The position numbers and the translations under genes are program-made. 64,000 bases of DNA from Pedobacter riviphilus (GTDB taxonomy: Bacteria > Bacteroidota > Bacteroidia > Sphingobacteriales > Sphingobacteriaceae): contig NZ_CP061171.1 of NCBI RefSeq assembly GCF_014692875.1, forward strand, positions 620,001 to 684,000, in the 5' to 3' direction. Positions 8,494 to 28,450 of this stretch are shown here, in pieces. The notes under the pieces were generated by a model that saw only the letters and a list, made by a program, of their open reading frames with translations, ran no database searches and was not told the DNA's origin. How positions within the stretch are numbered: the first letter of the stretch is position 1; each line of letters begins with the position of its first letter.

Positions 8494-8512
8494 TAGTGTA
8501 AAAATCACACTA
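8494..8512. promoter_or_regulatory. Operator A of the TAGTGT...ACACTA palindrome family
   Basis: TAGTGTAAAAATCACACTA has perfect 6-base arms (TAGTGT/ACACTA) around an A-rich centre and differs in only two central bases from the copy at 23292. It lies 119 bases before the GH31 start. The other copies lie next to pfkA/NUDIX regulator, a BadF-type kinase and a candidate sRNA, so it is probably the binding site of a sugar-metabolism regulator, most likely the NUDIX protein at 26641. Confidence 0.65.
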
Positions 8513-8630
8513 TTTAAATAATCTTTTCATAAAAAAGCTACATCCCTTTTGTAAAATATTTGTATTATAGTACTTTCTTAAGCACATCCCGGTTTAAGAA
8601 CCATGAATTTAAAATTTTGAATAAATAAGG

Positions 8631-11093
8631 ATGGAAGCGCAAAACGACAAACCTAACGAGACAAGTGATCTGGTCGAAAAAGAGCAAGAAATACAGCATT
8701 TAAACAATCCAGTTGATATATCGGTAAAGCCAATTGTTAAACAATACCTTGGTGCAGTTAAAAAAGTAAAAAAGGAGGGCAACCGTTTTTATTTTTCTGA
8801 TGGCGATGCAAGAGTAGAAGTTCGGGTGGTAAGCGATGATATTATTCGCGTTCGCCTGGCTCCTCATGGTGTTTTCTTGGATGATTTTTCTTATGCAGTA
8901 CCTGAGGTAGATCAAAAAGTTTCTGTTTTTAAAATGCAGGAACACGACGATCATTTCACGATCTCTACCCATGCAGTAACCTGTAAAATAGAAAAAGCAA
9001 ACTTCCATATTTCTTTTTCTGATAATATCACTAATGTAGTAATGGTTGATGAAGCCAATTCTATGCACTGGGAAGAAAATGTAGATTTTGGTGGTTATTA
9101 TATCTACGCAACCAAAAAATGCCACCCAGAAGAAAATTTCTTCGGTTTGGGCGATAAATCTGGCAATTTTAACCTGCGAGGCAGGCGGTTCGAAAACTGG
9201 AACACCGATGCCTACTCTTTCGGTTGGAACCAGGACCCACTTTACCGTACTATACCTTTTTATATCGGTTTGCACAATCAGGCTGCTTACGGTATTTTTT
9301 TCGATAATACCTTTAAATCGTATTTCGATTTCGGTTCTGAAGATGTAAATAAAACCAGTTTCTGGGCCGATGGGGGAGAACTGCAATACTATTATATCCA
9401 TGGGCCACACATTATGGATGTGGTTAAACGTTACGCATCTTTAACCGGAACGCACCCAATGCCTCCAAAATGGACTTTGGGCTATCAACAATGCCGCTGG
9501 AGTTATTATCCTGAAACAAAAGTTAAAGAAATAGCCAAGCAGTTCAGAGAGCGTAAAATCCCTTGCGATGCCATTTATCTGGACATCGATTACATGGATG
9601 GCTACCGCTGTTTTACCTGGAATAAAAAGTACTTTCCTGACCCGCGGAGAATGATTAAAGAACTTTCTGATGATGGCTTTAAAACCGTGGTCATGATTGA
9701 TCCGGGAATTAAGGTAGATGACGATTACTGGGTTTTTAAAGAAGGTAAAGAGAAAAGATTTTTCTGTCGCCGTAGCGACGATTATTATATGGAAGGACAT
9801 GTTTGGCCAGGCCGTTGTCAGTTTCCCGATTTTACCAATCCAAAAGTACGGAGCTGGTGGGGTAATTTATACAAAGAATTGGTTGATATGGGGGTTGCAG
9901 GTTTCTGGAACGATATGAACGAACCAGCCGTGTTCGGTTCGGGCACTTTCCCTAACGATGTTCGTCATAATTATGATGGTTACCGTGGCTCACACCGTAA
10001 GGCGCATAATGTTTATGGCATGCAGATGGTGCGTTCTACATACGAAGGACTGAAAAAACTAATGCGAAATAAACGTCCATTTACCATTACAAGAGCTGGT
10101 TATTCGGGCATGCAGCGTTATGCAAGTGTTTGGACCGGTGATAACATTGCAACCTGGGAGCATTTAAAGATTGGAAATATCCAATGCCAGCGTTTATCGG
10201 TTTCTGGTGTGCCTTTCTGTGGAACAGATATCGGCGGGTTTAGCGGTGAGCCGGACGGCGAATTGTTTACCCGTTGGATCCAGCTAGGTACATTTTCTCC
10301 TTTTATGCGAGCACACTCTGCCGGCGATACAGCTGAACGAGAACCTTGGAGCTTTGGCCAATTTTTTGAAGATATTAACCGTAAGTTTATCGAATTAAGG
10401 TATCGCTTAATGCCATATCTGTATTCGGTTTTCTGGGAGCATCATCGTTATGGTTTCCCTATTTTAAGGCCACTGGTGATGCTTGAGCAAGAAAATATCA
10501 GCAATAGTTTTCGTCAGGATGAATTTTGCTACGGTGATAAACTATTGATCTGCCCAGTTTTGGAACAGGGTGCAATCTCTAGAAAAGTTTATCTTCCGAA
10601 AGGGACCTGGTATAATTTCTGGACCAACGAAATTCTCAACGGCGGTAACGAATACACAGTTGATGCCAAGATAGACAGTATGCCGATGTTTGTAAGGGCA
10701 GGTAGTGTTTTGCCAGAATACCCGGTAATGCAGTATGTTGATGAAAAATCGATTACTGAAGTGATATTGAATATCTATCATAGCGATTACGAGGTAAATT
10801 CATACATGTACGAAGATCATGGCGATACATTTGCCTACGAACAGGATATTTATCTGGAAAAGAAATTTACTGTAAAAGGCGATAACCAGGCCATTAAAGT
10901 GAATCAGCGCAACGAAGGATTGTACACGCCTAATTACGAATTTTATGTTTGTAATGTTATCGGCGTAAAATTCCAAGTGAAAAAGATCATTATCGATAAT
11001 AAAGAGGTGAAAGATTTTTATACCGACGATCAGAATATCCTGCATTTTAAATGCAATAAGAACTTTTTAGAAATACAGATCTTAAGTCTGTAA
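8631..11093 (+). CDS. GH31 family alpha-glucosidase
   Basis: An 820-residue protein with GH31 order: N-terminal beta-sandwich (residues about 30-270), catalytic barrel (about 280-610) and C-terminal beta domains. The nucleophile motif is WNDMNEP with Asp428; Asp566 in RAHSAGDTAE is the expected acid/base. No signal peptide is seen (it begins MEAQNDKPNETSD), so it likely works in the cytoplasm on maltodextrins or glycogen fragments, releasing glucose. The branching enzyme gene follows in the same direction, which supports a glycogen/maltodextrin role. The TAGTGT palindrome upstream suggests shared control with glycolytic genes. Exact linkage specificity is not visible. Confidence 0.9.
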   Translation: MEAQNDKPNETSDLVEKEQEIQHLNNPVDISVKPIVKQYLGAVKKVKKEGNRFYFSDGDARVEVRVVSDDIIRVRLAPHGVFLDDFSYAVPEVDQKVSVFKMQEHDDHFTISTHAVTCKIEKANFHISFSDNITNVVMVDEANSMHWEENVDFGGYYIYATKKCHPEENFFGLGDKSGNFNLRGRRFENWNTDAYSFGWNQDPLYRTIPFYIGLHNQAAYGIFFDNTFKSYFDFGSEDVNKTSFWADGGELQYYYIHGPHIMDVVKRYASLTGTHPMPPKWTLGYQQCRWSYYPETKVKEIAKQFRERKIPCDAIYLDIDYMDGYRCFTWNKKYFPDPRRMIKELSDDGFKTVVMIDPGIKVDDDYWVFKEGKEKRFFCRRSDDYYMEGHVWPGRCQFPDFTNPKVRSWWGNLYKELVDMGVAGFWNDMNEPAVFGSGTFPNDVRHNYDGYRGSHRKAHNVYGMQMVRSTYEGLKKLMRNKRPFTITRAGYSGMQRYASVWTGDNIATWEHLKIGNIQCQRLSVSGVPFCGTDIGGFSGEPDGELFTRWIQLGTFSPFMRAHSAGDTAEREPWSFGQFFEDINRKFIELRYRLMPYLYSVFWEHHRYGFPILRPLVMLEQENISNSFRQDEFCYGDKLLICPVLEQGAISRKVYLPKGTWYNFWTNEILNGGNEYTVDAKIDSMPMFVRAGSVLPEYPVMQYVDEKSITEVILNIYHSDYEVNSYMYEDHGDTFAYEQDIYLEKKFTVKGDNQAIKVNQRNEGLYTPNYEFYVCNVIGVKFQVKKIIIDNKEVKDFYTDDQNILHFKCNKNFLEIQILSL

Positions 11094-11098
11094 CATTG

Positions 11099-11128
11099 AG
11101 CCCCAAATGCTGTTTAGTATTTGGGGCT
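11099..11128 (+). terminator. Strong stem-loop between GH31 and glgB (terminator or attenuator)
   Basis: A 13-base-pair stem (AGCCCCAAATGCT pairing with AGTATTTGGGGCT, one G-T pair) with loop GTTT starts 5 bases after the GH31 stop. It is followed by TCATTC, a poor T tract, so it may only partly terminate, or protect the 3' end and set the GH31:glgB ratio. Confidence 0.6.
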
Positions 11129-11152
11129 TCATTCAATCTAACCAAAATACCT

Positions 11153-13117
11153 ATGCCAGCAGCAAAAAAAGTTCCAGTAAAAAAAGTATCCCAACCAAAA
11201 ACTGACCAGCAGAAATCCGTTTGGATCCACAGTTTATTTACCGATTACGATATCGATCTTTTTCTTGTCGGAAAGCATTTTAGGCTTTACGAGAAAATGG
11301 GCTCACACTTAATTACGGTTGATGGAACCGCCGGAACTTATTTTTCGGTTTGGGCCCCAAATGCCATTCGTGTTAGTGTAGTGGGTAATTTTAACGATTG
11401 GAACAATAGTTCGCACCCGCTGAACGTACGCTGGGATAAATCGGGTATTTGGGAAGGTTTTATCCCCGGTATCGCGAAAGGCGAAGTTTATAAATATTTT
11501 GTTAAGGGTTTTGATGAATCTGAGCATCTAAAGGGCGATCCTTACGCCAGAAGATGGGAACATCCGCCACAAACTGCTTGTATTGTTTGGGATACCGATT
11601 ATACCTGGAAAGATAAAGCCTGGCTTAAAAAAAGAGCAAAAATAAATGCTTTGGATCAACCCATCTCAGTATATGAAATACATCTGGGTTCCTGGGAGCG
11701 CGATCCGGATAATCCAGAACGTGTTTTAACCTGTAGGGAAGTAGCCGGCAGGTTAGTGCCATATGTAAAGGAAATGGGTTTTACGCATGTAGAGCTGATG
11801 CCTGTAATGGAGTTTCCGTATTTCCCGAGCTGGGGTTATCAGATTACAGGTTATTTTGGGGCCAGTTCGCGCTATGGTTCTCCACAGGATTTGATGTACC
11901 TGATTAATGAGCTCCATAAAGCAGATATCGCTGTAATATTGGATTGGGTTCCTTCTCATTTTCCTGGTGATAGGCATGGTTTATATGAGTTTGATGGAAC
12001 GCATCTGTACGAACATGCCGATATGCGTAAAGGCTTTCACCCCGACTGGAAATCATATATATTTAATTATGATAGAAATGAGGTGCGTTCTTTCCTTATC
12101 AGCAATGCTTTATTCTGGTTGGATCAATATCATGCCGACGGATTGAGGGTAGATGCCGTGGCATCGATGTTATATTTCAATTTCTCCAGAGAAGGTAAAG
12201 ATGCTGCAACAAACGAATATGGCGGGAGTGAAAACCTTGGGGCCATACAGTTTTTACAGGACCTTAATGTAGCTGTTTATGGAAATTTTGAAGGCGTACA
12301 AACCATTGCAGAAGAAAGCAGCACTTATCCTGGGGTAACTCACCCAGTTCATGCTGGAGGCTTAGGGTTTGGGATGAAATGGATGATGGGCTGGATGAAC
12401 GATACTTTAAAGTATTTTAAGGTAGATACATTGGGTAGAAAGCATCACCATAACCAATTGAGTTTTAGCATGACTTATGCTTTTACCGAAAATTTTATGC
12501 TTCCTTTTTCGCATGATGAGGTAGTGCATGGTAAATCGCCAATGTTGTATAAGATGCCGGGCGATGACTGGCAGAAATTTGCTAACCTAAGGGCTTTGTA
12601 CGGTTATATGTTTACCCACCCGGGAGCAAAACTGCTTTTTATGGGGAATGAGTTTGGCCAAACCAACGAGTGGAACTTTACCCAATCGCTGGATTGGCAC
12701 TTATTACAATACCCCCCGCACAAAGGCATGCAAGAAACAGTTAAAGCCTTAAATTTCCTGTACCGCAAAGAACCAGCGTTGTTTCATTTCAATTTCAGCT
12801 ATGAAGGTTTTCAATGGATTGATGCAGATAATGCTAACGAATCTGTATTTGTGTATATGCGCAAGGGACCAAAGGCAAAAGATACTTTGGTTATTGCGAT
12901 AAACTTAACACCTGTGGTTAGGGAGAATTATAGAATAGGAGTACCTTTTAAAACCAAATGGACAGAAATTTTTAATACCGATGATATTGTTTATTATGGA
13001 GGCGGTATTAATAACAGAGGGAATATTGTTCCTGACCTGGAAAATTATAACGGACAGGAATATTCAATAATTGTTGATTTGCCACCTTTGGCTGTGGTGA
13101 TTTTTAAGAGCAAGTAA
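11153..13117 (+). CDS. glgB: 1,4-alpha-glucan (glycogen) branching enzyme
   Basis: A 654-residue protein that makes alpha-1,6 branches in glycogen. It has an N-terminal CBM48-like domain (GTYFSVWAPNAIRVSVVGNFNDW) and a GH13 barrel: ASSRYGSPQDLMYLI, LRVDAVASML with nucleophile Asp334, AEESSTYPGVT with Glu387, and FSHDEVVHGK for the third acidic residue. The C-terminal all-beta domain is present. An in-frame TTG at 11096 would place the start within the intergenic stem-loop; the ATG at 11153 (MPAAKKVPVKK) is therefore chosen. It follows the GH31 gene and is probably read from the same promoter through the stem-loop. Confidence 0.95.
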   Translation: MPAAKKVPVKKVSQPKTDQQKSVWIHSLFTDYDIDLFLVGKHFRLYEKMGSHLITVDGTAGTYFSVWAPNAIRVSVVGNFNDWNNSSHPLNVRWDKSGIWEGFIPGIAKGEVYKYFVKGFDESEHLKGDPYARRWEHPPQTACIVWDTDYTWKDKAWLKKRAKINALDQPISVYEIHLGSWERDPDNPERVLTCREVAGRLVPYVKEMGFTHVELMPVMEFPYFPSWGYQITGYFGASSRYGSPQDLMYLINELHKADIAVILDWVPSHFPGDRHGLYEFDGTHLYEHADMRKGFHPDWKSYIFNYDRNEVRSFLISNALFWLDQYHADGLRVDAVASMLYFNFSREGKDAATNEYGGSENLGAIQFLQDLNVAVYGNFEGVQTIAEESSTYPGVTHPVHAGGLGFGMKWMMGWMNDTLKYFKVDTLGRKHHHNQLSFSMTYAFTENFMLPFSHDEVVHGKSPMLYKMPGDDWQKFANLRALYGYMFTHPGAKLLFMGNEFGQTNEWNFTQSLDWHLLQYPPHKGMQETVKALNFLYRKEPALFHFNFSYEGFQWIDADNANESVFVYMRKGPKAKDTLVIAINLTPVVRENYRIGVPFKTKWTEIFNTDDIVYYGGGINNRGNIVPDLENYNGQEYSIIVDLPPLAVVIFKSK

Positions 13118-13140
13118 AATATATTGGTTCCTATACTACT

Positions 13141-13276
13141 CCAAAACTATATATAAAATCATAGTTTTGGCGTGATATATATATTTATACTGCGCCAAAA
13201 CTACATATAAAAACATACTTTTGGTGTAATATGTGTTTTTATATTACGACAAAACTAAATTTTTAGTTACATTTGT
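13141..13276 (+). repeat. 54-bp tandem repeat with palindromic core (about 2.5 copies)
   Basis: Units begin at 13141, 13195 and 13249, exactly 54 bases apart. Unit 1 holds a perfect 10-base inverted repeat (CCAAAACTAT / ATAGTTTTGG around ATATAAAATC). Unit 2 is a degenerate copy (CCAAAACTAC...ATACTTTTGG), and unit 3 has kept ACAAAACT with an inner AACTAAATTTTTAGTT palindrome. The 24-base spacers also resemble each other. The array ends over a TACATTTG -7-like element at 13268, directly before the ATPase remnant, so it could be an operator array for that gene. Confidence 0.75.
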
Positions 13277-13295
13277 TGTTGTAGATAAAGTATTT

Positions 13296-13742
13296 ATGGA
13301 ACATGTTGTAGGGCGAACTGAAGAAAATTGTTGCTAAACAAGATAGAGAAATCTGGTGAAAGTGAACTGATTGCTGTATATGGACGTAGACGGGTGGGAA
13401 AGACTTACTTAATCAGAAACGGATTTACTAAAGAAATTGCATTTGAATTTTCTGGTATCCATCATGGAACATTAAACCAGCAGTTAGAAAATTTTAGTCT
13501 GGCACTTACAAAAGTAACAAGCAGTTTCCCTTTAGCCAAACCAGAAAGTTGGATAGCTGCCTTTGAAATGCTGGTTCAATATCTCATCCCCTTGATAAAA
13601 AGGGAAAGAACAGTTATTTTTATTGACGAATTTCCCTGGATTGTTCCTGACTATGATTACAACTTACGGAGTTGCAAATAGTGACCATTATCCAGGTTTG
13701 GTACAAAAAGAGATTACGATGGATGTGCTGTTTGATCATTAA
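13296..13742 (+). pseudogene. Remnant of an AAA-family ATPase gene (P-loop, DUF234/DUF4143-type), doubly disrupted
   Basis: ATG at 13296 opens with MEHVVGRTEE and then shifts frame: one extra A in the AAAA run at 13324-13327 would join it to LLNKIEKSGESELI. That frame carries a Walker A site (GRRRVGKTY) and Walker B (VIFIDEFPW), then stops at 13681. From 13653 another frame reads MITTYGVANSDHYPGLVQ and ends MDVLFDH, which matches the C-terminal end of this ATPase family. The central and most C-terminal parts, some hundreds of residues in complete members, are missing. The large internal deletion makes this a true remnant, not just a sequence error. Confidence 0.8.
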
Positions 13743-13772
13743 CCAGGTTGATCAGCCAATTTAAAAATTTAA

Positions 13773-13836
13773 ATAAGAAAAGCCTCCCATTGCTGGAAGG
13801 CTTTCTTAAACTCTGGAGTGGAAGCTTCCAGAGAGG
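13773..13836 (-). ncRNA. Candidate small structured RNA (minus strand)
   Basis: Downstream of a strong minus-strand promoter (see 13840-13870), the RNA would form a hairpin from CTCTGG/CCAGAG (13811-13833) and then a terminator-like hairpin (AAGAAAGCCTTCC pairing with GGGAGGCTTTTCTT, two bulges, 13773-13806) followed by T-rich sequence. No start codon with a credible reading frame follows. About 65 nucleotides. It could instead be a leftover leader of a lost gene. Confidence 0.4.
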
Positions 13837-13839
13837 GTG

Positions 13840-13870
13840 CAAAGATACAATAACCATTGTTTCTTGCAAG
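13840..13870 (-). promoter_or_regulatory. Full Bacteroidota-type promoter (minus strand)
   Basis: On the minus strand, TTG (13869-13867) is followed after exactly 19 bases by TATCTTTG (13847-13840), the -33/-7 spacing and sequence expected for the primary sigma factor of Bacteroidota. This is the best promoter match in the window. The only thing it can transcribe is the hairpin region at 13773-13836. Confidence 0.6.
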
Positions 13871-14124
13871 TATTTTTTTGCTAAATATTTATTGTATTCC
13901 AGTTGCCGTCGATTGTTCTTATCGATGGGCATTTCAATTGCTTCTTCAGGTAATAATCATGTGTGCCATGCCAAAGACGCGGTTGGTTTAGGTTAATCGT
14001 CCAGATAAATGCTTTAATCTTTGAGTTTACTTCGTTTGTTGATAAATATCAATAAAACAGGCTTTTAGGGGTTGTGAGAAGGGTAATGAATGAAGTGAAC
14101 GAATAATCTGCCTCTGTACCTCCG
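13871..14124. other. Intergenic stretch with possible minus-strand coding debris
   Basis: No intact gene. On the minus strand a start-less open frame ending near 13880 reads TINLNQPRLWHGTHDYY and KCPSIRTIDGNWN, and another frame reads MPIDKNNRRQLEYNKYLAKK. Both look more protein-like than random, but neither is recognised and they overlap. They may be debris of a lost gene. Confidence 0.3.
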
Positions 14125-14132
14125 TACTTTTG
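14125..14132 (+). promoter_or_regulatory. -7 promoter element of the secretion cargo cluster
   Basis: TACTTTTG matches TAnnTTTG and lies 50 bases before the first gene of the 14.2-19.1 kb cluster. No TTG at the right distance upstream, so moderate. Confidence 0.4.
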
Positions 14133-14181
14133 CATCAACGAGCAAACGAACTGATTTATTTTCTCCCTTTACTTTAAGCAA

Positions 14182-16407
14182 TTGAAAAGACGCTCTTGTC
14201 TATCTTTCTTGGTGCTTGTGCTTTTTCTTATGCCCACGTATTTGCGTGCGCAGGTTGTAGCACAGTGTGAAAATACAAAGCGTACTTACGCAGATTTTCA
14301 AGGATCAATCCAATACGGATTTAAGGTGTTGGGCGGGTCGTTAATTATGGGTACTATTTCAGATGCAGGAAACGCTGTTAATGGACAGGTTAAAGATGCA
14401 TCAACATTAGGTGTTGGACTTGGCCTGGCGGGATTGGCATCTTCCACTCAATTCTTACAATTTAGCGTTGCAGGTGGTTCACCCAGATCAATTCCGGCCA
14501 ATACTCCTGTTACCATTAAAATTTCACTCCCCACCGAAGTCTTGAGCGTTCTAAGCGGCGTAGAAATAGGGACATTTACAGGTTTACATACTGTTGCTGC
14601 TGATTGGCCCTTATTGGGATTGCTAGGTCCAGGTCATGATGCGGGATATGAGGCAACTACTGTTCCGATTTATAACTCTACCAATATAGCTGGTGTAATT
14701 AGCGGTTCGGGAGAGGTTGAGATTACACTCACGCCTAACCAGATATATAACGGGATTTATGTTAAGCTTGCCGGCAATTTACTATCGGTAGCTTTATCTA
14801 CAAAGCTGTTTCATGCCTACATTATGGAAACGACTACTGATAAGATTGATTGTGATGAAGTAATTGATGTTTTATCGGGGGTACAGCCTACTGTTATTGG
14901 TGGGGTGTTAAATGCAACCGGAAAGGTAACTGATCCTTTCAATTCAATAGATAGCGATAAAAATAGCTATGCACTGATGGATGTTGGGATCTCGGTATTA
15001 AACAAAATATACCTTACGGCAATATTTAATAAGCCTTCTCAGCCGAAAGATTCTGTGAGCATTATAATAGGTAAGCCAGGGGGCGGATTACTTAATCTGA
15101 GTTTACTTACTGGGTTTATCATTCAGCCTTATTTAAATGGGGTTAAAGCGGGGGATGCCTTTGATAATACAGGAACTTTCCTAAATCTTCAGCTTTTTCC
15201 CGGTTCAACAGATAAATATGTACTGACCTTTCCAATTACCGAGGTTTACGACCGTTTAGAAATCACTACCGGAGGATTAGCAGGTGTGCTGGGTTCACTT
15301 CAGATTTACGATATTAAAAGAAAATTGGCTAAACCACGCACATTGATCGATCCTGTGGCTGAGGATGCCAGGGCCATCTGCCAGGGAGAAACCACTACCT
15401 TTTCCGTTAACAATCCACAGGCTTGTACAGAATATAAATGGTACGATGCTGAAACAGGAGGCAATTTGTTGTATACCGGAGAAAATTATACTCCTCCATC
15501 CTCGCTACTTGCCGGAGATTATAGTTACTATGTGCAAGGTAGCAGAACCTACTGCGTAACAGGGGTTTCTGAAAGACTCCGTGTGAAACTGAAAGTTCAT
15601 CCACTGCCACCACTCGATGTTTCGGGTACAACAATCTGCAGTGGAGCAACAGCAGCATTATCTGTTAATAACTCCGATATCGCCCAATATACCTACAATT
15701 GGTACACCACTGCCAATGGAATTACACCGGTTAACACAGGGGCAACCTACACAACACCTACTCTTAATGCAAACACAACTTATTATGTAGAAGCCATTAA
15801 TATATTAACAGGCTGTAAGAATGCGGGAGGCCGCAAAGCAGTGTTGGTAAATGTTAAACCTCTTGCTGTTGTAAATCCGATTATTGGCGTAAATACCATC
15901 TGTGCTGGAACAACCACAACTTTAACCAATGATAACCCTTTGGGTGTTTGGAGCAGTAGTGATGCAGCCATTGCAACAATAGATGCTACAGGTAAAGTTA
16001 CTGCAGTGGCTGCCGGTAATACGGTAATTAGTTATACAGTGGCTGATGACGCTACTTATTGTGGTAAAAAAGTAGATTTTCCTTTAACTGTAAATCAACA
16101 GCCCAATTTAACATTAGGACCAGATGCGGGTATTTGTGAAGGGTTGACCACAACCAGAATTACTTACACCAATCCTGTTTTTAACCCAATAACCTATAGT
16201 ATTTCCTGGGCAGGGAATTTATTGCCTGCTGTTCTAAATCAGGCCTTACCTGCAAATGAAATTACCATTACTATACCCTCAACTACTCCTGTTGCAGTGT
16301 ACCAAGGAGTTTTAACCATTAAAAACGCAAATGGTTGCGAGCGTAATATCCCTTTCAATTTTAGGGTAAAGCTCGTACCGCATAAACCAACAGTATCTAT
16401 TAACTAA
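14182..16407 (+). CDS. Large secreted Ig-like repeat protein (type IX cluster)
   Basis: A 741-residue protein with signal peptide (SFLVLVLFLMPTYLRAQ). Residues about 25-390 form an unrecognised beta-rich domain. Then come two Ig-like repeats, each with a Cys pair and a WY motif (ICQGETTTFSV...YKWYDAETGG; TICSGATAALSV...YNWYTTANG), and a Big_2-like repeat (VWSSSDAAIATIDATGKVTA). It ends without a recognisable type IX sorting domain, unlike the CHU_C-ending protein two genes on. Probably a cell-surface or secreted adhesin-like protein. The start used is TTG; no ATG lies before the signal peptide. The four genes to 19122 run in one direction with gaps of 38, 24 and 22 bases. Confidence 0.75.
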   Translation: MKRRSCLSFLVLVLFLMPTYLRAQVVAQCENTKRTYADFQGSIQYGFKVLGGSLIMGTISDAGNAVNGQVKDASTLGVGLGLAGLASSTQFLQFSVAGGSPRSIPANTPVTIKISLPTEVLSVLSGVEIGTFTGLHTVAADWPLLGLLGPGHDAGYEATTVPIYNSTNIAGVISGSGEVEITLTPNQIYNGIYVKLAGNLLSVALSTKLFHAYIMETTTDKIDCDEVIDVLSGVQPTVIGGVLNATGKVTDPFNSIDSDKNSYALMDVGISVLNKIYLTAIFNKPSQPKDSVSIIIGKPGGGLLNLSLLTGFIIQPYLNGVKAGDAFDNTGTFLNLQLFPGSTDKYVLTFPITEVYDRLEITTGGLAGVLGSLQIYDIKRKLAKPRTLIDPVAEDARAICQGETTTFSVNNPQACTEYKWYDAETGGNLLYTGENYTPPSSLLAGDYSYYVQGSRTYCVTGVSERLRVKLKVHPLPPLDVSGTTICSGATAALSVNNSDIAQYTYNWYTTANGITPVNTGATYTTPTLNANTTYYVEAINILTGCKNAGGRKAVLVNVKPLAVVNPIIGVNTICAGTTTTLTNDNPLGVWSSSDAAIATIDATGKVTAVAAGNTVISYTVADDATYCGKKVDFPLTVNQQPNLTLGPDAGICEGLTTTRITYTNPVFNPITYSISWAGNLLPAVLNQALPANEITITIPSTTPVAVYQGVLTIKNANGCERNIPFNFRVKLVPHKPTVSIN

Positions 16408-20593: not shown

Positions 20594-20605
20594 TAATATT
20601 GCACA

Positions 20606-20692
20606 TATAAGGGGTGAGAGCCTTATATCAACTTCATAGTTGAGAGCGTTAATTTAGATAGAGGGTGTGGCCAATGGCTACACCCTTTTTTT
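20606..20692 (+). ncRNA. Candidate small RNA with three hairpins and a strong terminator
   Basis: A -7-like element TAATATTG (20594-20601) is followed by hairpin TATAAGG/CCTTATA, hairpin CAACT/AGTTG, and a terminator: AGGGTGTGGCC pairing with GGCTACACCCT (11 base pairs, one G-T; 20662-20685) followed by seven T. No protein-coding frame explains it. The T tract is on the plus strand only, so it is not simply the terminator of the convergent nucleotidase gene. About 85 nucleotides. Confidence 0.5.
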
Positions 20693-20705
20693 ATGCTATT
20701 TTTCA

Positions 20706-21257
20706 TTAAGCTAACATGAGGTTTGTCTCTTCCAGTTGTTTCAATAAAGCTGGTACCTCATTCCAGTGGTTGATCCGCTGATGATGGTCTTTCGCTACAT
20801 TGTGGAATGCGGTAAACATTAAAGGTTTGCCTTTGCAGAAATCGAGGTTTTTGCTATGATCATCAATTAAATAGTCGGTATCAATAATGCTTTTATCGCC
20901 GCAAAAGATAATGTTTTTCCAACTGATGAAAGGGAAATGCTCTGCCAGCCATTCGTGTTTTTCGAAAAGGGATAAAGGAAATTCCATGGCTGCCGAAACA
21001 ATATAGATTTCATAATCTTCCATGAGTTTTTTTACGGCTTCAACAGCACCTTCCATAACCGGCAGGTTCCTGAAAAAGCCTGTTCTGTTGCAGATCTTCA
21101 TGACCATTGCCCTATCCGGAAAAAGTTCTTCTTCCGATTTGCCTTTTATATCGTTGCGCGTAAGCGAAATACCTGTTTCAATCTGATAGGTATGTAATAT
21201 ATGATCTTCGATGTCGGCCAGTACGCCGTCCATATCTATGCCAATGGTTTTTTTCAT
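20706..21257 (-). CDS. 5'(3')-deoxyribonucleotidase-type HAD phosphatase
   Basis: A 183-residue protein with HAD motif I DMDGVLAD (Asp8 nucleophile, Asp10), motif II Ser88 in IVSAA, Lys122, and motif IV IDDHSKN (Asp132/Asp133). Size and motifs fit the NT5C-type cytosolic 5'-nucleotidase family that dephosphorylates deoxyribonucleoside monophosphates. It is divergent from a DeoR-family gene; three palindromic sites lie in the 96 bases between them. I infer that the DeoR protein controls it, which fits a nucleotide or sugar-phosphate salvage role. Confidence 0.82.
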   Translation of the reverse strand: MKKTIGIDMDGVLADIEDHILHTYQIETGISLTRNDIKGKSEEELFPDRAMVMKICNRTGFFRNLPVMEGAVEAVKKLMEDYEIYIVSAAMEFPLSLFEKHEWLAEHFPFISWKNIIFCGDKSIIDTDYLIDDHSKNLDFCKGKPLMFTAFHNVAKDHHQRINHWNEVPALLKQLEETNLMLA

Positions 21258-21260
21258 TAT

Positions 21261-21276
21261 TTGCTATATTTTGCAA
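21261..21276. promoter_or_regulatory. DeoR operator site 1 (degenerate)
   Basis: TTGCTATATTTTGCAA keeps both half-sites (TTGC...GCAA) of the 16-bp palindrome seen at 21292. It lies at the expected transcription start of the nucleotidase gene, just downstream of its -7 element. Confidence 0.6.
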
Positions 21277-21284
21277 CAAAAATA
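21277..21284 (-). promoter_or_regulatory. -7 element of the nucleotidase gene
   Basis: On the minus strand TATTTTTG matches TAnnTTTG, 20 bases before the ATG. It lies between operator sites 1 and 2. Confidence 0.5.
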
Positions 21285-21291
21285 TTTAATA

Positions 21292-21307
21292 TTGCAATAT
21301 ATTGCAA
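21292..21307. promoter_or_regulatory. DeoR operator site 2 (perfect palindrome)
   Basis: TTGCAATATATTGCAA is a perfect 16-bp palindrome in the middle of the divergent promoter region, 31 bases from site 1 and 42 from site 3, close to three and four DNA turns. Confidence 0.75.
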
Positions 21308-21328
21308 ATTTTATTCTTTTAAAATTTT

Positions 21329-21336
21329 TATATTTG
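21329..21336 (+). promoter_or_regulatory. -7 element of the deoR-type gene
   Basis: TATATTTG matches TAnnTTTG and overlaps operator site 3, 17 bases before the ATG at 21354. Confidence 0.5.
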
Positions 21337-21349
21337 CAATATATTGCAG
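21334..21349. promoter_or_regulatory. DeoR operator site 3
   Basis: TTGCAATATATTGCAG differs from site 2 only in the last base. It overlaps the -7 element and start region of the deoR-type gene, so binding should block its own transcription. Confidence 0.75.
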
Positions 21350-21353
21350 TAAT

Positions 21354-22103
21354 ATGGTAAAGGAAGAGCGCCTACAGATTATTATTAATACCCTTGATAA
21401 AGACAGTAAAGTAAGGCTTGATGCCTTAAGCGCTTTGTTGAATGTATCAGAAGATACCGTGCGCCGCGACATTAAAGAGCTTGATTCGCAAGGGTTGCTC
21501 CGTGCCGTTCGTGGTGGTGCAATTTCCCGTTCTCCTATACCCCAACACTATAGAGATAGGGAAAAATACAATCAGCAACATAAGCAAGCCATTGCCAATA
21601 AAGCCTTGCAGTTTTTAAAAGATGGTCAGGTGGTTTTTTTTGACGGCGGTACTTCGGTAGTGGCGCTCGCTACGATTTTGCCTACAGATTTAAAGATTAC
21701 CATCATTACCAATAGCTTTCCGGTAGCCAATATCTTGGAAGATCACCCTAGTGCTGAGGTAATATTTGCGGGAGGAAGATTGCAAAAAACTGCATTTACT
21801 ACTATAGGACAAGAAACTATCGATACATTTAAGAAGGTAAGGGCCGATATCTGTATGCTTGGTATCTGTAGTTTGCATCATAGTATGGGCATTACTTCCA
21901 TTATTTATGAAGATGCTCAGTTGAATAATATTATGATTAGCCAGGCGCAGAAAACTATTGCACTATCCGCACTCGAAAAAATAAATACTGTAGAGCCTTA
22001 CTATGTTTGCCCGGTTAATGATGTAGATGTGATTATCACCGAAACAGATCCCGATAATGCCATCCTTGTGCCTTATAAAAATTTGGGGATTAAGGTGATT
22101 TAA
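21354..22103 (+). CDS. DeoR/GlpR-family transcriptional regulator
   Basis: A 249-residue protein with a DeoR-type N-terminal helix-turn-helix (residues 4-57: RLQIIINTL, LSALLNVSEDTVRRDIKEL, GLLRAVRGGA) and the DeoRC sugar-phosphate-sensing domain (FFDGGTSVVALATIL, ITNSFPVANIL, GQETIDTF, and KTIALSALEK near the end). The frame is open upstream into an AT-rich stretch, but the ATG at 21354 (MVKEERLQ) begins at the usual family start, while the longer form would run across the operators. It probably represses itself and the divergent nucleotidase. Confidence 0.92.
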   Translation: MVKEERLQIIINTLDKDSKVRLDALSALLNVSEDTVRRDIKELDSQGLLRAVRGGAISRSPIPQHYRDREKYNQQHKQAIANKALQFLKDGQVVFFDGGTSVVALATILPTDLKITIITNSFPVANILEDHPSAEVIFAGGRLQKTAFTTIGQETIDTFKKVRADICMLGICSLHHSMGITSIIYEDAQLNNIMISQAQKTIALSALEKINTVEPYYVCPVNDVDVIITETDPDNAILVPYKNLGIKVI

Positions 22104-22197
22104 ATACTGGTATATTTTTAACTCGGGAGCTGGCTATTTTATTCTTAGGGAAAGAAATAGTTAATTATCCTTAGCTTAATCGTGATGTTGAGTGACT

Positions 22198-22602
22198 TTA
22201 GGGTGCAGCGTACAAACTAAGGTTCTTTTTGCGTAAAAAGTGAAAACTTAATCCGCCTAAGCACAAAATTAAGAGCGAAAGAGAATTGTCTAGAGCGCAA
22301 TCCAGGATGGTGAATGTTTGTATGGTTCCTCCTGTAGGATTACCACTTCCTGGAGGGCAATTACCACCAGGATTAAGTCCATTCATACAAATAGTGCAGG
22401 GCGTTCCGGCAGTAGAACTCGAGTAACACTCTCCCGACAGATCTACGGAAGGTGATCCATCAAACAAAATTCCGTTGTTGGTTTGGGTGTAAACCTGTTG
22501 TCCGAGCGGCACAACGCAGCCTGTAATAGTGGCTTGCGCCATTAATTTTTGCACTGGGCAACATAATATGCAAATACAAAATAATAATGCTGCATTCTTC
22601 AT
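22198..22602 (-). CDS. Secreted Cys-rich protein with C-terminal membrane anchor, unknown function
   Basis: A 134-residue protein. Signal peptide (LLFCICILCCPVQKLMAQ), then a Gly/Pro/Cys-rich middle (TGCVVPLGQQVYT near 27, GECYSSST, TPCTICMNG, NPGGNCPPGSG), then DCALDNSLSL followed by a hydrophobic stretch (LLILCLGGLSFHFL) and a basic tail (RKKN). The tail (short motif, membrane helix, basic end) resembles sorting or anchoring tails, but I cannot match it to a known sortase or exosortase signal. No family is recognised. It stands alone with a 1.1-kb gap upstream. Confidence 0.6.
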   Translation of the reverse strand: MKNAALLFCICILCCPVQKLMAQATITGCVVPLGQQVYTQTNNGILFDGSPSVDLSGECYSSSTAGTPCTICMNGLNPGGNCPPGSGNPTGGTIQTFTILDCALDNSLSLLILCLGGLSFHFLRKKNLSLYAAP

Positions 22603-23111
22603 TTTGACAAAAATAAACTAAAATGCAGTATAAATACTACGTAATTTTTCTGTTTTTGATAATTGTCAATGTGAAAATTTGTTCAATTTTATCAGCTAAT
22701 CTTGTTCATTTATAATGTGTTGCGGTATAATAGTGGTTTTTGAATAGCCTTTTTTTTGTTAATAGGTAAGCTGAAAATTTTTAGGAATGAATTTGATTCT
22801 TCTAATTGTCACTTTCATTGAGTTCTAGTGGGGACTTACCATCCATGTTGTGTAAAATGCCATCTTTATGAATAAGCTGGTTTTTGGAGAGAGCCTAGCG
22901 GTAATTGATAACAGTGCCCCGTTTAGTGGATTTATGATAAATATTGGGTGGATATGAAGGTTTACGGTTAATTCTTTCGAAATTTTATTGTTGATCTATT
23001 TCATCTCTGTTTATGTAAAAATCGATGTTGAAAGTATAATATTGGTTTGAGGATATGTTTTTTCAGTAAGCAATGGTAATAAATGCGGTAAAAAAAAAGC
23101 CTGTATAAAAG
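22603..23111. other. Gene-poor AT-rich region
   Basis: No open frame of note, no repeat. The stretch around 22835-22940 is slightly richer in GC but holds no recognised structure. Confidence 0.5.
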
Positions 23112-23266
23112 AAAAGAGACAATCTATCCAGACTTGTCTCTTTTTTCTAACCAAATATAAACCTGTTATGAGCCAGGCTTTGTCTTTAATCTTCTATCTA
23201 AACCAGGGTTTTTCAAGAAAATGATTTATCTTTTTTTATCGTGATAAACATCGTTCCGTTTATTAC
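23112..23266 (-). ncRNA. Candidate small RNA under the sugar-regulon operator
   Basis: On the minus strand: operator palindrome (23310-23292), 13 bases, -7 element TATATTTG (23278-23271), about 150 nucleotides without a credible protein, then a terminator (AAAAGAGACAA pairing with TTGTCTCTTTT, 11 perfect pairs, 23144-23112, followed by CTTTTATAC). Inside is a short CCTG/CAGG hairpin. The longest frame from an ATG has only 12 codons (MFITIKKDKSFS). The unit has all parts of an independently transcribed, sugar-regulated sRNA. The next minus-strand gene starts 500 bases beyond the terminator. Confidence 0.55.
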
Positions 23267-23270
23267 TCTA

Positions 23271-23278
23271 CAAATATA
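23271..23278 (-). promoter_or_regulatory. -7 promoter element of the candidate sRNA
   Basis: TATATTTG (minus strand) matches TAnnTTTG. The -33 position falls within the 19-bp palindrome, so a protein bound there would compete with RNA polymerase. Confidence 0.5.
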
Positions 23279-23291
23279 GTAAAAAATTTGA

Positions 23292-23310
23292 TAGTGTAAA
23301 AAATACACTA
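23292..23310. promoter_or_regulatory. Operator B of the TAGTGT...ACACTA palindrome family (consensus copy)
   Basis: TAGTGTAAAAAATACACTA; 6-base arms are perfect and extend to near-complete symmetry. It is the best copy of the four in the window and overlaps the -33 region of the candidate sRNA promoter. Confidence 0.75.
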
Positions 23311-23624
23311 AGAAAATTTTAAGTATTTTTTTTGTCATTTTTTATTTCCTGTTCTTTTTCTATAAGCTTTTAGGATTTAAAATGATCGTACTGCAAAGAT
23401 AAGGTAAAAATTTGTTAAGTAATTGTTAAATATTGTCAATTTATAGCACGATTTAGTCAAACGTTTGTTTAATCCCTTGCTTAAAATGATTTCTATCATA
23501 TTTTTAGGTGTTTTTTGTTGTTTTTACGATTGTAAAGTTGATTTTTGTATGAAAAATTAATCAAAAAATATTTTTCGTGTCAATTTTGAAATAAAATTTA
23601 TATGTGAAAATTGTGTTTAAAACA
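23311..23624. other. AT-rich intergenic region
   Basis: No gene. One minus-strand TATCTTTG element (23399-23392) lies upstream of operator B, and a 41-codon frame (start MTKKILKIFLVYF) runs across operator B. I consider that frame chance. Confidence 0.4.
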
Positions 23625-23658
23625 AAAAGGCAACATTAATTGAATAATGTTGCCTTTT
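23625..23658 (-). terminator. Terminator of the gap gene
   Basis: A perfect 14-base-pair hairpin (AAAAGGCAACATTA / TAATGTTGCCTTTT, loop ATTGAA) 34 bases past the gap stop, with T-rich sequence following on the minus strand. Confidence 0.85.
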
Positions 23659-23692
23659 ATATGATTTGAAAATTGCTTAATGCATTTTTTTA

Positions 23693-25542
<1,850 letters not shown>

Positions 25543-25543
25543 A

Positions 25544-26530
25544 TTATATTGAAAGTACCTCTGTCATTTCCATTAAATCGGGCTCGAGTTTAAAAGAATG
25601 AGCAGTTAAAGCCTCTCTTATGCTGGTTAATTTTATTTCGTTTCCTTTTAAACCTACCATTTGCTCCGTTTCGCCTGCAATTAACGCATTTACTGCGGCA
25701 AAACCTAAACGACTGCCCAAAATTCTGTCGAAACTGCTTGGACTACCGCCACGTTGAAGGTGGCCAAGTATGGTTACTTTGGTATCGTAATGATCAAAAG
25801 TTTCTTTTACTTTTTTAGCAATATCGTAAGCACCGCCCTGTTTATGGCCTTCGGCCACGATAACAATACTCGATGATTTTTTTGTTGCTGCGCCTAAGGC
25901 CAGTTTGTTAATTAATTCGTTAACGCTGGTTTCCCTTTCAGGTAATAAAACAGCTTCAGCACCGCTGGCTATCGAACTTCTTAGGGCAATACAACCAGAA
26001 TCGCGCCCCATTACCTCTATGAAGAATAAACGGTCGTGTGCATCGGCAGTATCCCTGATTTTATCAATCGCTTCGATTACAGTATTAATAGCTGTATCGT
26101 AACCTAAAGTAAAGTCAGATCCAACTAAATCGTTATCAATAGTACCCGGTATACCAATTACCTTAACACCAAAAGTTTCTGAGAAACGTTTCGCCCCGGT
26201 AAATGTCCCGTCACCTCCAATTACGACCAGTCCGTCAATATCATTTTTCTTTAAGTTATTGTAGGCAATCTGTTGACCTTCGTCTGTTTTAAACTCTAAA
26301 CAGCGCGCAGTTTTTAATATGGTACCGCCCAAGTGTAAAATGTTACTTACAGAACGGGCGTCCATTGGTTTTATGTTGTCGGTAATTAAACCTTGGTAGC
26401 CTTGCATTACCCCAAACATATTAATGCCATGGTAAATTCCGGTACGAACAACAGCTCTGATTGCAGCATTCATTCCAGGGGCATCGCCTCCAGAAGTAAG
26501 TACAGCTATATTTTTTATATTTGGCTTCAT
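25544..26530 (-). CDS. pfkA: ATP-dependent 6-phosphofructokinase
   Basis: A 328-residue protein with the bacterial PfkA motifs: GGDAPGMNAAIRAVVR (14-29), IGGDGTFTGA (104-113), GTIDND with catalytic Asp132, and FIEVMGRDSG. It phosphorylates fructose 6-phosphate in glycolysis. Gly108 in GGDG is the residue pattern of ATP-using enzymes. It is first in the operon with the BadF-type protein and gap; the minus-strand -7-like TATATTCG (26548-26541) and a TAGTGT-type operator lie directly upstream, shared with the divergent NUDIX regulator. Confidence 0.97.
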   Translation of the reverse strand: MKPNIKNIAVLTSGGDAPGMNAAIRAVVRTGIYHGINMFGVMQGYQGLITDNIKPMDARSVSNILHLGGTILKTARCLEFKTDEGQQIAYNNLKKNDIDGLVVIGGDGTFTGAKRFSETFGVKVIGIPGTIDNDLVGSDFTLGYDTAINTVIEAIDKIRDTADAHDRLFFIEVMGRDSGCIALRSSIASGAEAVLLPERETSVNELINKLALGAATKKSSSIVIVAEGHKQGGAYDIAKKVKETFDHYDTKVTILGHLQRGGSPSSFDRILGSRLGFAAVNALIAGETEQMVGLKGNEIKLTSIREALTAHSFKLEPDLMEMTEVLSI

Positions 26531-26540
26531 CTTTATAACA

Positions 26541-26548
26541 CGAATATA
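26541..26548 (-). promoter_or_regulatory. -7-like element of the pfkA operon
   Basis: TATATTCG on the minus strand is one base off TAnnTTTG, 10 bases before the pfkA ATG. It directly abuts the operator at 26549. Confidence 0.4.
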
Positions 26549-26567
26549 GTGTGTATTTTTTACACTA
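26549..26567. promoter_or_regulatory. Operator C between pfkA and the NUDIX regulator
   Basis: GTGTGTATTTTTTACACTA matches the reverse complement of the consensus at 17 of 19 positions. It covers the -33 area of the pfkA operon promoter and lies 74 bases before the regulator start, where it can serve both directions. Confidence 0.7.
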
Positions 26568-26640
26568 AGTAATTTATTTTATTTTTTTACTTAATATTGA
26601 AAGTCATACCTTTATCTGCTTAAAATAACTAAATTTTACT

Positions 26641-27330
26641 TTGGAACAAATTTTACCTCATTTAGATTCTGTATTCTCGATAGATTGCGTTTTGTTTGGA
26701 TTTGATGGTAAGGAATTAAAAATCCTGCTCATTGAAAGGAATGAAGAACCATTTAAAGATTGGTGGGCATTGCCCGGTAATATTGTTGGCCCTGATGAAA
26801 GTTTAGATCAATCGGCCTCCCGCATTTTGTACGAACTTACTGGCTTGCGTGGCATTTATATGGAGCAGTATTATGCCTTTGGCGATCCGAACAGGCACCC
26901 GCAAGGTAGGGTAATTACTTTGGCTTATTACGCTTTGATCCGTTTAGGGGGAGATAAGGAACTGCGTCCGATTAGTACTTATGCCAAAAGGGCAAATTGG
27001 CTGCCGATTACTGACCTGCCTAAACTGGCATTCGATCACCAGAAAATTTACGATAAAGGACTAGAAAAAATAAAACGCCGGATTAAACACCAGCCAATTG
27101 CTTTCGAACTTTTGCCGGAGAAATTTACCTTAACGCAATTGCAGCATGTTTATGAACTGGTTCTGGGTAAAAAACTCGATAAACGGAACTTTAGGAAAAA
27201 GATTGTGAGTTTTGGTGTACTGAAAGAGCTAGATGAAAAACAAAAAGGAGTTTCCTATCGTGCGGCTACTTTGTACCGCTTCGATAAGCGTAAATACGCG
27301 AAACTTTTTGGTAAGGAGATCTCTTTTTAG
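26641..27330 (+). CDS. NUDIX-domain transcriptional regulator (NrtR/AraR type)
   Basis: A 229-residue protein. Residues 1-145 are a NUDIX domain (SIDCVLFGFDGKELKILLIER, WWALPGNIVGPDESL); the NUDIX box is degraded: R61-I-L-Y-E65-L where hydrolases have REUXEE, so it should bind rather than cleave ligand. Residues 150-229 form a winged helix (FTLTQLQHVYELVLGKKLDKRNFRKKI) as in NrtR and the Bacteroides arabinose regulator AraR. It starts with TTG at 26641; no better start is seen. Divergent from pfkA-kinase-gap, with operator C between. I infer it binds the TAGTGT-ACACTA sites and responds to a sugar or glycolytic metabolite. Confidence 0.85.
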   Translation: MEQILPHLDSVFSIDCVLFGFDGKELKILLIERNEEPFKDWWALPGNIVGPDESLDQSASRILYELTGLRGIYMEQYYAFGDPNRHPQGRVITLAYYALIRLGGDKELRPISTYAKRANWLPITDLPKLAFDHQKIYDKGLEKIKRRIKHQPIAFELLPEKFTLTQLQHVYELVLGKKLDKRNFRKKIVSFGVLKELDEKQKGVSYRAATLYRFDKRKYAKLFGKEISF

Positions 27331-27371
27331 ATATGAGACAAGAGTAGGAAACATAAGTTTAATATAAATGC

Positions 27372-27408
27372 AAAAATCCCCGATTTGAATTTCAAATCGG
27401 GGATTTTT
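27372..27408. terminator. Bidirectional terminator between the NUDIX regulator and the second kinase
   Basis: A near-perfect palindrome: AAAAATCCCCGATTTGAA against TTCAAATCGGGGATTTTT, with A and T tracts on each side. It serves both convergent genes. Confidence 0.88.
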
Positions 27409-27423
27409 ATATGGTTGTAATCC

Positions 27424-27472
27424 GACTCAGGACTCCAGACTCAGGACTCCAGACTTAGGACTGAAGACTAGG
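27424..27472 (+). repeat. 14-bp tandem repeat (about 3.5 copies)
   Basis: Units GACTCAGGACTCCA, GACTCAGGACTCCA, GACTTAGGACTGAA and GACTAGG. The last unit supplies the TAG stop codon (minus strand, 27468-27470) of the kinase gene. A related run, GAGCCCTAAGTCGTGAGCC, lies at 29578. Confidence 0.7.
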
Positions 27473-28328
27473 CTTTAGGCGCTAACTCCAAGTGGTAATG
27501 TACCAGATCATCTATAGGTGAGCGGATAATTTTACCTACGCCCATTTCGTAACGGTCGGCTACAATACTTAAAATATCACGGAAACTATAACCTACTGAA
27601 CCCACACAGTTTAATTTGTGGTCTTTGTAGTTAGGATAGTGGATGACCAAAGCTTCGAAAAATGCAGTAAAAGCATAATCAATGGTAGCAAAAGCATAAT
27701 CCTCATAGTTATCTTTAAAATCGTATAAGAATTTACTAAAGCTTGCGCAGAAACGGTTTGGCAGTGGCTTATTATAAATGTTATCGAAAATATCTTCGTT
27801 GGTTAAAGCGTAGTTATCGTAAAAAGCTTCACGTAATCCTTTCGGCATGTAACCTTTCATGTAATCGCTTAAAATACGTTTACCGATGTACGAGCCGCTA
27901 CCTTCATCACCCAAGAAATAACCCAACGAATCGATGTTCATGGTAATTTCAGATCCATCATAAAGGCATGAATTTGTACCTGTACCTAAAATAGCAGCAA
28001 ATCCTGGCTCGTTTCCAAGGAGTGCTCTAGATGAAGCAAGTAAATCGTGGCCTACAAAAATGGTTGCATTGGTAAAGATCAGTTGCATGGCATCGGCCAC
28101 AATCTTAACATTTGCAGGTGTAGAACAGCCGGCACCGTAGTAATAAACTGCTGTTAATTTCTCTCTTTCCAAGTGGTCTGGAAGAGTCTCATTCAAAGAC
28201 TTTACAATGTACTCTCCCTTCGAAAAATATGGATTGTAACCTTCGGTGTTAAAGTAAATTTTTCTGCCGGCCTCGTTAATCAAACACCAATTTGTTTTGG
28301 TAGATCCGCCGTCTGCAATTACTATCAT
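27468..28328 (-). CDS. BadF/BadG-type sugar kinase (N-acetylglucosamine kinase-like)
   Basis: About 286 residues of the actin-like kinase fold with all motifs intact: phosphate 1 ADGGSTKTNW (Asp6), GHDLLASSRA with the catalytic Asp, phosphate 2 ILGTGTNSC, and LGDEGSGSYIGK. Relatives are annotated as N-acetylglucosamine or glucosamine kinases; the sugar is not certain here. A GTG at 28352 would add eight residues; the ATG at 28328 begins just before the first strand and is preferred. Upstream is operator D (28432-28450). It is the intact paralogue of the degenerate protein at 24700, so the two may act in one sugar-sensing or sugar-entry step. Confidence 0.85.
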   Translation of the reverse strand: MIVIADGGSTKTNWCLINEAGRKIYFNTEGYNPYFSKGEYIVKSLNETLPDHLEREKLTAVYYYGAGCSTPANVKIVADAMQLIFTNATIFVGHDLLASSRALLGNEPGFAAILGTGTNSCLYDGSEITMNIDSLGYFLGDEGSGSYIGKRILSDYMKGYMPKGLREAFYDNYALTNEDIFDNIYNKPLPNRFCASFSKFLYDFKDNYEDYAFATIDYAFTAFFEALVIHYPNYKDHKLNCVGSVGYSFRDILSIVADRYEMGVGKIIRSPIDDLVHYHLELAPKA

Positions 28329-28431
28329 TTTATTTATTTTTGGTTTTAGCACGATAAAAGTATAAAAAGTCTTATATTTTGTATCCTTTTTTTTAATAAT
28401 TTTTTAACAATTTGTTGTTGTCGAAAATTAA

Positions 28432-28450
28432 GTGTGTAAAAAATACACTA
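28432..28450. promoter_or_regulatory. Operator D upstream of the BadF-type kinase
   Basis: GTGTGTAAAAAATACACTA matches the consensus at 17 of 19 positions. It is 104 bases before the kinase start on the minus strand and 99 bases before the threonine aldolase on the plus strand, so it could act on either. Confidence 0.65.

Follow-up and report, generated by a model that had tools for sequence, protein, structure and literature searches.

A Nudix-fold protein of the NrtR family as a candidate switch of central carbon metabolism in Pedobacter riviphilus and its relatives

What do four copies of a 19-bp palindrome control, and which protein reads them? The copies lie in a stretch of 64,000 nucleotides from Pedobacter riviphilus (contig NZ_CP061171.1, positions 620,001 to 684,000; hereafter the window), near genes for glycolysis, glycogen synthesis and sugar kinases and near a gene for a Nudix-type protein that starts at position 26641 (here nrtR). 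An initial annotation had proposed that this protein binds the palindromes and coordinates upper glycolysis with the use of glycogen and maltodextrin. Our analysis points to a broader role, and we are fairly confident that the regulator is a Cra/HexR-like switch of central carbon metabolism, with DNA binding, signs of control and effector all standing as predictions. The sites, their conservation and spacing, and the conservation of the recognition helix are solid computational results.

A search of the window for the 19-mer with up to three mismatches returned the same four copies, all intergenic (Table 1), compared to a mean of 0.03 and a maximum of 1 in 100 dinucleotide shuffles of the window. 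The proposed consensus operator is the palindrome GTGTA-N5-TACAC. In the whole genome (5.83 Mb, one contig), the same search gave 21 places, 17 of them outside the window, and the reversed control pattern gave 5. A sequence-only model, R1, returned 25 matches at E≤10, which correspond to 21 distinct places after merging of strand pairs. Eleven of these are located at identified sugar or central-carbon genes or serC, at the small RNA gene described below, or at the window's own targets; four are inside reading frames, and the others have no evident sugar link. From flanking frames and family scans, the other sites of this genome include those of class II fructose-bisphosphate aldolase (fbaA, two in tandem), pyruvate kinase (pyk), ATP-type phosphoenolpyruvate carboxykinase (pckA), class 1 fructose-bisphosphatase (fbp), the phosphoserine transaminase serC and an AraJ-like MFS transporter, the last lying outside the 21 R1 places. 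A site with a score of 24.2 also lies upstream of susC in a starch- or maltose-like LacI-susC-susD-GH13-HAD-GH65 locus.

We then consider the protein itself. Its Pfam matches are NrtR_WHD (E = 9e-29), AraR_C (8e-16) and NUDIX (2e-12), and PF00293 (residues 13 to 138) is followed by PF21906 (154 to 214), both over cut-off and in the domain order of the NrtR family. A palindromic operator beside the regulator gene and its target operons, another feature of that family, is likewise present. The best match among solved structures is BtAraR (5bs6, E = 3e-54), to which homology is clear. BtAraR (BT0354) is the L-arabinose regulator of Bacteroides and a member of the NrtR family; it reads GTGT half-sites spaced 7 bp through Lys179, Arg180, Asn181 and Lys184, and Lys204 and Arg205 are also listed among its DNA contacts (excerpts of PMC4666351). 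The operator crystallised with BtAraR has the GTGT-N7-ACAC spacing of the palindromes studied here. The recognition helix DKRNFRK is the same in both proteins, so that the helix contacts are identical; in the wing, Lys204 is replaced by Tyr and Arg205 is kept. This helix is identical in 15 of 16 aligned orthologues and reads DKRNFRR in the other (L444). Because recognition helix and operator spacing both match BtAraR, the best candidate for the binder is, as had been proposed, the 26641 protein, which very likely reads the sites. A homologue at E≤1e-20 was found in 151/151 genomes of the order searched (12 genera, best matches 52 to 100% identical) and, outside the family, in 107 of 285 genomes of the class (117/295 minus 10 of the own family).

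To assess conservation, we fetched 60 regulator neighbourhoods of relatives and built a scoring matrix from 32 distinct pfkA-nrtR sites, all from relatives, which was applied with a threshold of 12 and a window of 400 bp. Counts for pyk, fbaA and pckA include the own genome, and those for pckA also three second copies. The pfkA gene lies beside nrtR in 52 of the 60 neighbourhoods, mostly in the order gap-kinase A-pfkA, and kinase A and gap lie there in five of the other eight. Linkage of the regulator to arabinose genes was not found in these neighbourhoods. All 52 loci with pfkA in the fetched stretch carry the site; this count is partly circular, and eight of the 52 sites, with four arm mismatches and outside the training set, still pass. 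In 50 of the 52 relatives, 17 to 38 bp separate the site from the pfkA start; in the two exceptions the distance is 113 and 137 bp. The interval between site and nrtR, by contrast, can exceed 500 bp. Because the distance to the pfkA start is kept and that to nrtR is not, the site at 26549 belongs to pfkA. The initial annotation had placed it between the pfkA operon and the regulator. Conserved autoregulation of nrtR is not supported; we rejected it as a general reason for the site. In the five kinase A-gap loci without pfkA, the site precedes kinase A in four (L095, L106, L108 and L109), with a weaker one in L107, and the remaining neighbourhoods (L076, L086 and L102) have no site.

The same sites recur at other genes. 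They were found at 29 of 31 pyk loci and 16 of 31 fbaA loci; of 44 kinase B relatives, 25 have one no more than 400 bp away. At pckA, an asymmetric variant, TAGTGTA-N6-ACAATA, is present in 21 of 27 loci. The initial annotation assigned the site at 28432 to a BadF-type kinase; the kinase side (kinase B) stands, but the site also faces a divergent threonine-aldolase-like gene (at 28549). As a control, shuffled 400-bp upstream regions had a site in 20 of 5800 cases. Of 96 sites in 656 kb of DNA from relatives, 1 fell outside the expected regions, and none occurred in 60 kb of own background; the motif is thus not spread at random. With the pfkA count above, the proposal of the initial annotation passed both of its refutation tests that sequence data allow. 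Among 20 loci outside the family, two had a site scoring at least 12 within 1.5 kb of the regulator (L428 beside pfkA and L444 beside a kinase).

The position of the sites relative to promoters suggests the signs of control. The flavobacterial −7 box is TAnnTTTG at −12 to −5 (excerpts of PMC9723704). The pfkA operator abuts TATATTCG in 11 of the 14 relatives shown, and the other three have TATATTAG, a 2-bp overlap and a 9-bp gap, respectively. Of the 29 pyk loci, 14 (12 from the own genus) show a 2-bp overlap between the operator and an exact −7 box. Since the pfkA and pyk operators touch a stretch required by the polymerase, repression is the natural reading, and we regard repression of both genes as likely. 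The arrangement at pckA is different: downstream of the site, an exact −7 box stands at a distance of 46 to 48 bp in 14 of the 21 loci and of 36 to 37 bp in three others (genus g2). The same variant stands at 36 to 37 bp in 5 of 10 Sphingobacterium fbp loci examined. The eleven stretches of exactly 47 bp between pckA site and box have a mean identity of 43% and a minimum of 21%. The spacing is therefore constant, apart from a shift of one helical turn, over DNA that has diverged, which suggests that activation occurs from a single helix face, with the site centre near −69 or −58; activation of pckA is probable.

Taken together, these data suggest the following switch. The 26641 protein would be a sugar-sensing transcription factor of the AraR-like branch of the NrtR family, with the palindrome as its operator. 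Without effector, the dimer would block the promoters of pfkA-kinase A-gap and pyk, and probably those of fbaA and kinase B, through sites on the RNA polymerase footprint, and, from a position near −69 or −58, it would activate pckA, a gene of gluconeogenesis, and in some Sphingobacterium fbp as well. The proposed effector is an intermediate of glycolysis, probably phosphorylated, whose entry into the disabled Nudix pocket would free the protein from DNA. The shift of the cell between burning and making sugar would then probably be under the control of the regulator.

Several observations weigh against this model. The pfkA box is off consensus, no exact box touches the site in 15 of 29 pyk loci, an exact box occurs at fbaA only once in 16, and 4 of the 21 pckA loci carry the variant without an exact −7 box. 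No site was found in 15 of 31 fbaA loci, and with the trained matrix 10 of 27 pckA loci pass, the variant half-site ACAAT having been defined after viewing the loci. At fbp of Pedobacter and Mucilaginibacter, the site abuts the start codon, which leaves the sign of control unclear, and its outer half (TACACTAAG) may in part be a leader element. Four of the 21 R1 places are within reading frames (L161, L163, L164 and L165), and three paralogues of the regulator in the own genome, one with a near-identical helix, could share sites. Finally, the site before GH31-glgB is present in 3 of 25 orthologous loci (five further loci below 50% identity were dropped), so this link is lineage-specific and local. 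We therefore rejected glycogen control as the main theme. Of the coordination put forward in the initial annotation, the glycolytic half is supported, the glycogen half is not as a general link, and the scope was too narrow, as the sites also reach fbaA, pyk and pckA.

The alternative that fares best, which we nevertheless consider unlikely, is that the protein represses all of its targets, including pckA and fbp, and that the fixed pckA spacing has another cause. Repression is the role described for BtAraR, with L-arabinose as the releasing ligand, and for NAD-type NrtR (excerpts of PMC4666351), and the Pedobacter fbp sites beside the start codon lie downstream of likely promoters. The pckA site, however, ends about 48 bp before the −7 box, clear of the core promoter, and 17 of 21 loci keep the distance at 46 to 48 or 36 to 37 bp despite divergence of the intervening DNA, as activation from one helix face requires.

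The binding pocket bears on the nature of the effector. In the Nudix box (GX5EX7REUXEEXGU), RILYELTG replaces REUXEEXG, and the first and third of the three REUXEE glutamates are gone, which agrees with the earlier remark that the catalytic pattern is missing. BtAraR contacts its sugar through Arg34, Arg86 and His131 (excerpts of PMC4666351). Of the corresponding positions, R85 and H133 are invariant in 20/20 aligned sequences and R33 is kept in at least 90%. The pocket around them has changed: RDPGER has become RHPQGR, so that two acidic residues beside the ligand arginine are now His and Gly, and Phe36 and GGF are replaced by Glu and GNI, respectively. The RHPQGR change is a hint of a phosphorylated sugar as ligand, and a phosphosugar effector is plausible.

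A second, quite improbable alternative is that the regulator is a classical NrtR that senses ADP-ribose or NAD and tunes glycolysis to the NAD pool. The best NCBIfam match is indeed the model of an ADP-ribose-responsive repressor, at 151.6 bits compared to a cut-off of 400, gap uses NAD, and a weak operator-like place (L166, own genome 5428797) lies between nuoA- and nuoB-like frames, as judged by eye. SoNrtR contacts ADP-ribose through Arg98, Asn43, Lys76 and Arg41 (excerpts of PMC4666351). The first three align with Gln88, Glu35 and Leu66 here, and of the four only Arg41 is kept, whereas all three sugar contacts of BtAraR are. No NAD-synthesis gene was recognised at the 21 genome places, where part of the flanking genes was scanned.

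The paralogues raise the question of whether another factor binds the sites. L024 (own genome near 912553) has the helix DRRNFRK and TTGTGT-N7-ACACAA-type sites, similar to GTGT-N7-ACAC, at 1030, 1742 and 1795 around its own gene; with the pfkA-trained matrix, one of these sites reaches a score of 16.2. It is very unlikely that L024 or an unlinked protein binds the sites and that the neighbouring NrtR has other targets, because the L024 sites are flanked by TT/AA, unlike TAGTGT/ACACTA, its neighbour is a ribose-phosphate pyrophosphokinase-like gene, and the 26641 protein is encoded beside the sites in the fetched relatives. We note that L024 is itself a candidate NAD-type NrtR. For the paralogues with helix DTRNFSRK or DNRNFIRK, the 3-kb loci contain no site of this kind. 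A separate palindrome, AATTGTC-N5-GACAATT, accompanies paralogue L025 (2130 to 2300; own genome near 1577217), which is divergent from galT and a candidate galactose regulator.

How does the proposed switch compare with known systems? Cra and HexR repress glycolysis and activate gluconeogenesis, and a sugar phosphate releases them. Cra/FruR of E. coli, HexR of Proteobacteria and CggR of Bacillus belong to the LacI, RpiR and SorC families, respectively. They share the control logic proposed here but come from other protein families, which makes this an analogy and not a membership, and a Pfam scan of the regulator did not find the LacI domain of the Cra/FruR fold. Cra and CggR are treated in PMC12965863 (excerpts). 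The regulator is best described as a variant within the NrtR family that would work like Cra or HexR and is no member of their families. With BtAraR, it shares the domain order, the degenerate Nudix box, the helix, the GTGT-N7-ACAC operator and the Arg/Arg/His sugar contacts, but it differs in its sites at central glycolysis and gluconeogenesis genes, the absence of arabinose neighbours, the changed pocket, the Tyr at Lys204 and the probable activator sites. As in the NAD-type NrtR proteins (SoNrtR and others), excerpts on which describe the same Nudix and winged-helix architecture and palindromic operators beside targets, the regulator stands next to its predicted operons, but the predicted targets and three of the four checked ligand contacts are different. 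No description of a transcription factor of central glycolysis in Bacteroidota was found among the top matches of the literature searches, which covered few subscription papers. If the model is correct, one small protein would explain glycolytic control in a large family of polysaccharide degraders, and the recruitment of the NrtR/Nudix fold for flux sensing would be a clean example of convergence with Cra, HexR and CggR.

The site at 23292 precedes a small RNA gene downstream of gap. Covariance model R2 matches it at 23105 to 23198 (E = 5e-22, the sequence itself being in the model). Compensatory double changes were seen in 10 of 11 pairs of the terminator stem (16 predicted in total) among 18 sequences. 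A site scoring at least 12 lies within 1500 bp after gap in 12 of the 58 relatives with gap, and the ACAGGTTTATATTTGGTTAG core is found in 17 of 60 relatives' loci. Since five loci (L066, L068, L069, L070 and L072) lack an operator and have the core right where gap ends, the small RNA gene looks derived from the gap 3′ end. At E≤0.1, R2 matched 128 of 151 genomes. All 63 genomes of the own genus were matched strongly (weakest best E = 5e-13), with 1 to 5 matches each, some of them weak; the matches in 65 genomes of other genera were weak (best E = 3e-4) and were discounted. The own genome has three matches, and the other two copies, at 1000646 to 1000738 (+) and 348803 to 348891 (+), are without operator. 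An Rfam search of 25 kb at E≤1 gave three matches far below gathering scores, none of them on the small RNA. FopS of Bacteroides thetaiotaomicron is similarly a multi-copy small RNA family in which a conserved stretch matches the start regions of SusC-like genes (excerpts of PMC11697453). Unlike FopS, the RNA described here carries its core in the 3′ part, ahead of the terminator, and one of its copies is linked to a glycolysis operon and an operator; the likeness is one of description.

We infer the targets of the small RNA, and the sign of any control, from base complementarity. The 17-nt core is complementary, with one to three mismatches, to the leaders of four SusC-like TonB receptors, an H+-pyrophosphatase, an MFS transporter, a glycosyltransferase, topoisomerase IB and others. 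Among 66 core-complementary places with up to three mismatches (two being the other RNA copies), 14 sense and one antisense place lie within 25 nt of a start; of the 14, one is listed twice (L286/L459) and three are just inside the gene. In 79 background leaders, 2 matches were seen at up to one mismatch compared to 0.2 for shuffled cores, 5 compared to 2.8 at up to two, and 15 compared to 16.6 at up to three, and A-rich leaders account for part of the core matches near starts. Genome-wide, the excess over the reversed control is modest (67 compared to 52). In one locus (L281), 16 of 17 nt are complementary to the core 12 nt before a membrane H+-pyrophosphatase gene at 1530.

A bolder and more doubtful possibility is that a Nudix-fold flux sensor for a phosphorylated glycolytic intermediate holds the whole Cra/HexR role in Sphingobacteriaceae, repressing glycolysis and activating gluconeogenesis from helical positions that are fixed, and that in Pedobacter it also drives a multi-copy, gap-derived small RNA that shuts SusC-type receptors at high sugar flux. 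If true, carbon catabolite control would have been invented independently here, in two layers.

The sites probably also reach fbp, serC (in the own genome only) and galK and galT (in one relative each). Two complete genomes of other genera were scanned with the operator model at E≤3. The first (G039) gave nine distinct places, including pfkA, fbaA, pyk, galT and, as judged by eye, kinase B, and the second (G147) gave 11, including pyk, kinase A-gap, kinase B, galK, glgX, a dicarboxylate symporter and fbp; other places in the two genomes have no clear link. In the second of these genera (L242), the model match near fbp is inside the preceding gene, with a weaker second site before fbp. Many of 80 fbp loci have no site scoring at least 12 (beyond L380, only loci with a site were shown). 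The site of the AraJ-like transporter (L002, 1501 to 1519) stands 8 bp before the gene, directly after a TACCTTTG box. That of serC (L491, 2405 to 2423) is an ACAATA-half variant as at pckA, about 195 bp before the gene and beside a divergent Lrp/AsnC-like gene, as judged by eye.

Table 1. Features of the window discussed in the text (GlcNAc, N-acetylglucosamine; MurNAc, N-acetylmuramic acid)
Feature	Position	Strand	Evidence or remark
Putative operator before GH31-glgB, lineage-specific	8494..8512	+	19-mer match
GH31 alpha-glucosidase family	8631..11093	+	Pfam scan
glgB, glycogen branching enzyme	11096..13117	+	PRK12313 1.7e-272, over cut-off
Small RNA gene (5′ end estimated)	23105..23266	-	Variable 5′ part, invariant core ACAGGTTTATATTTGGTTAG, covarying terminator
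−7 box TATATTTG of small RNA promoter, 13 bp after operator	23271..23278	-	Aligned with 12 relatives
Putative operator, small RNA gene	23292..23310	-	19-mer match
gap, glyceraldehyde-3-phosphate dehydrogenase	23693..24691	-	Pfam Gp_dh_C 9e-70
Sugar kinase A, relative of GlcNAc/MurNAc kinases	24700..25542	-	PDB 8oqw ATPase 1e-40; 8ow9 putative MurNAc kinase 3e-40
pfkA, ATP 6-phosphofructokinase	25544..26530	-	TIGR02482 8.5e-126, over cut-off
Probable pfkA −7 box TATATTCG, differing from TAnnTTTG in one letter	26541..26548	-	Abuts operator
Putative operator, pfkA-kinase A-gap operon	26549..26567	-	19-mer match
NrtR/AraR-family regulator, start codon TTG	26641..27330	+	Degenerate Nudix domain and winged helix
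Sugar kinase B, relative of GlcNAc kinases	27468..28352	-	PDB 1zbs hypothetical protein 3e-64; 8oqk N-acetylglucosamine kinase 1e-57
Putative operator upstream of sugar kinase B	28432..28450	-	19-mer match

Kinase A, which was assigned from solved structures, had no Pfam or NCBIfam match. On the 3′ side of nrtR, a perfect hairpin, CCCCGATTTGAATTTCAAATCGGGG, at window positions 27372 to 27408 is a likely terminator.

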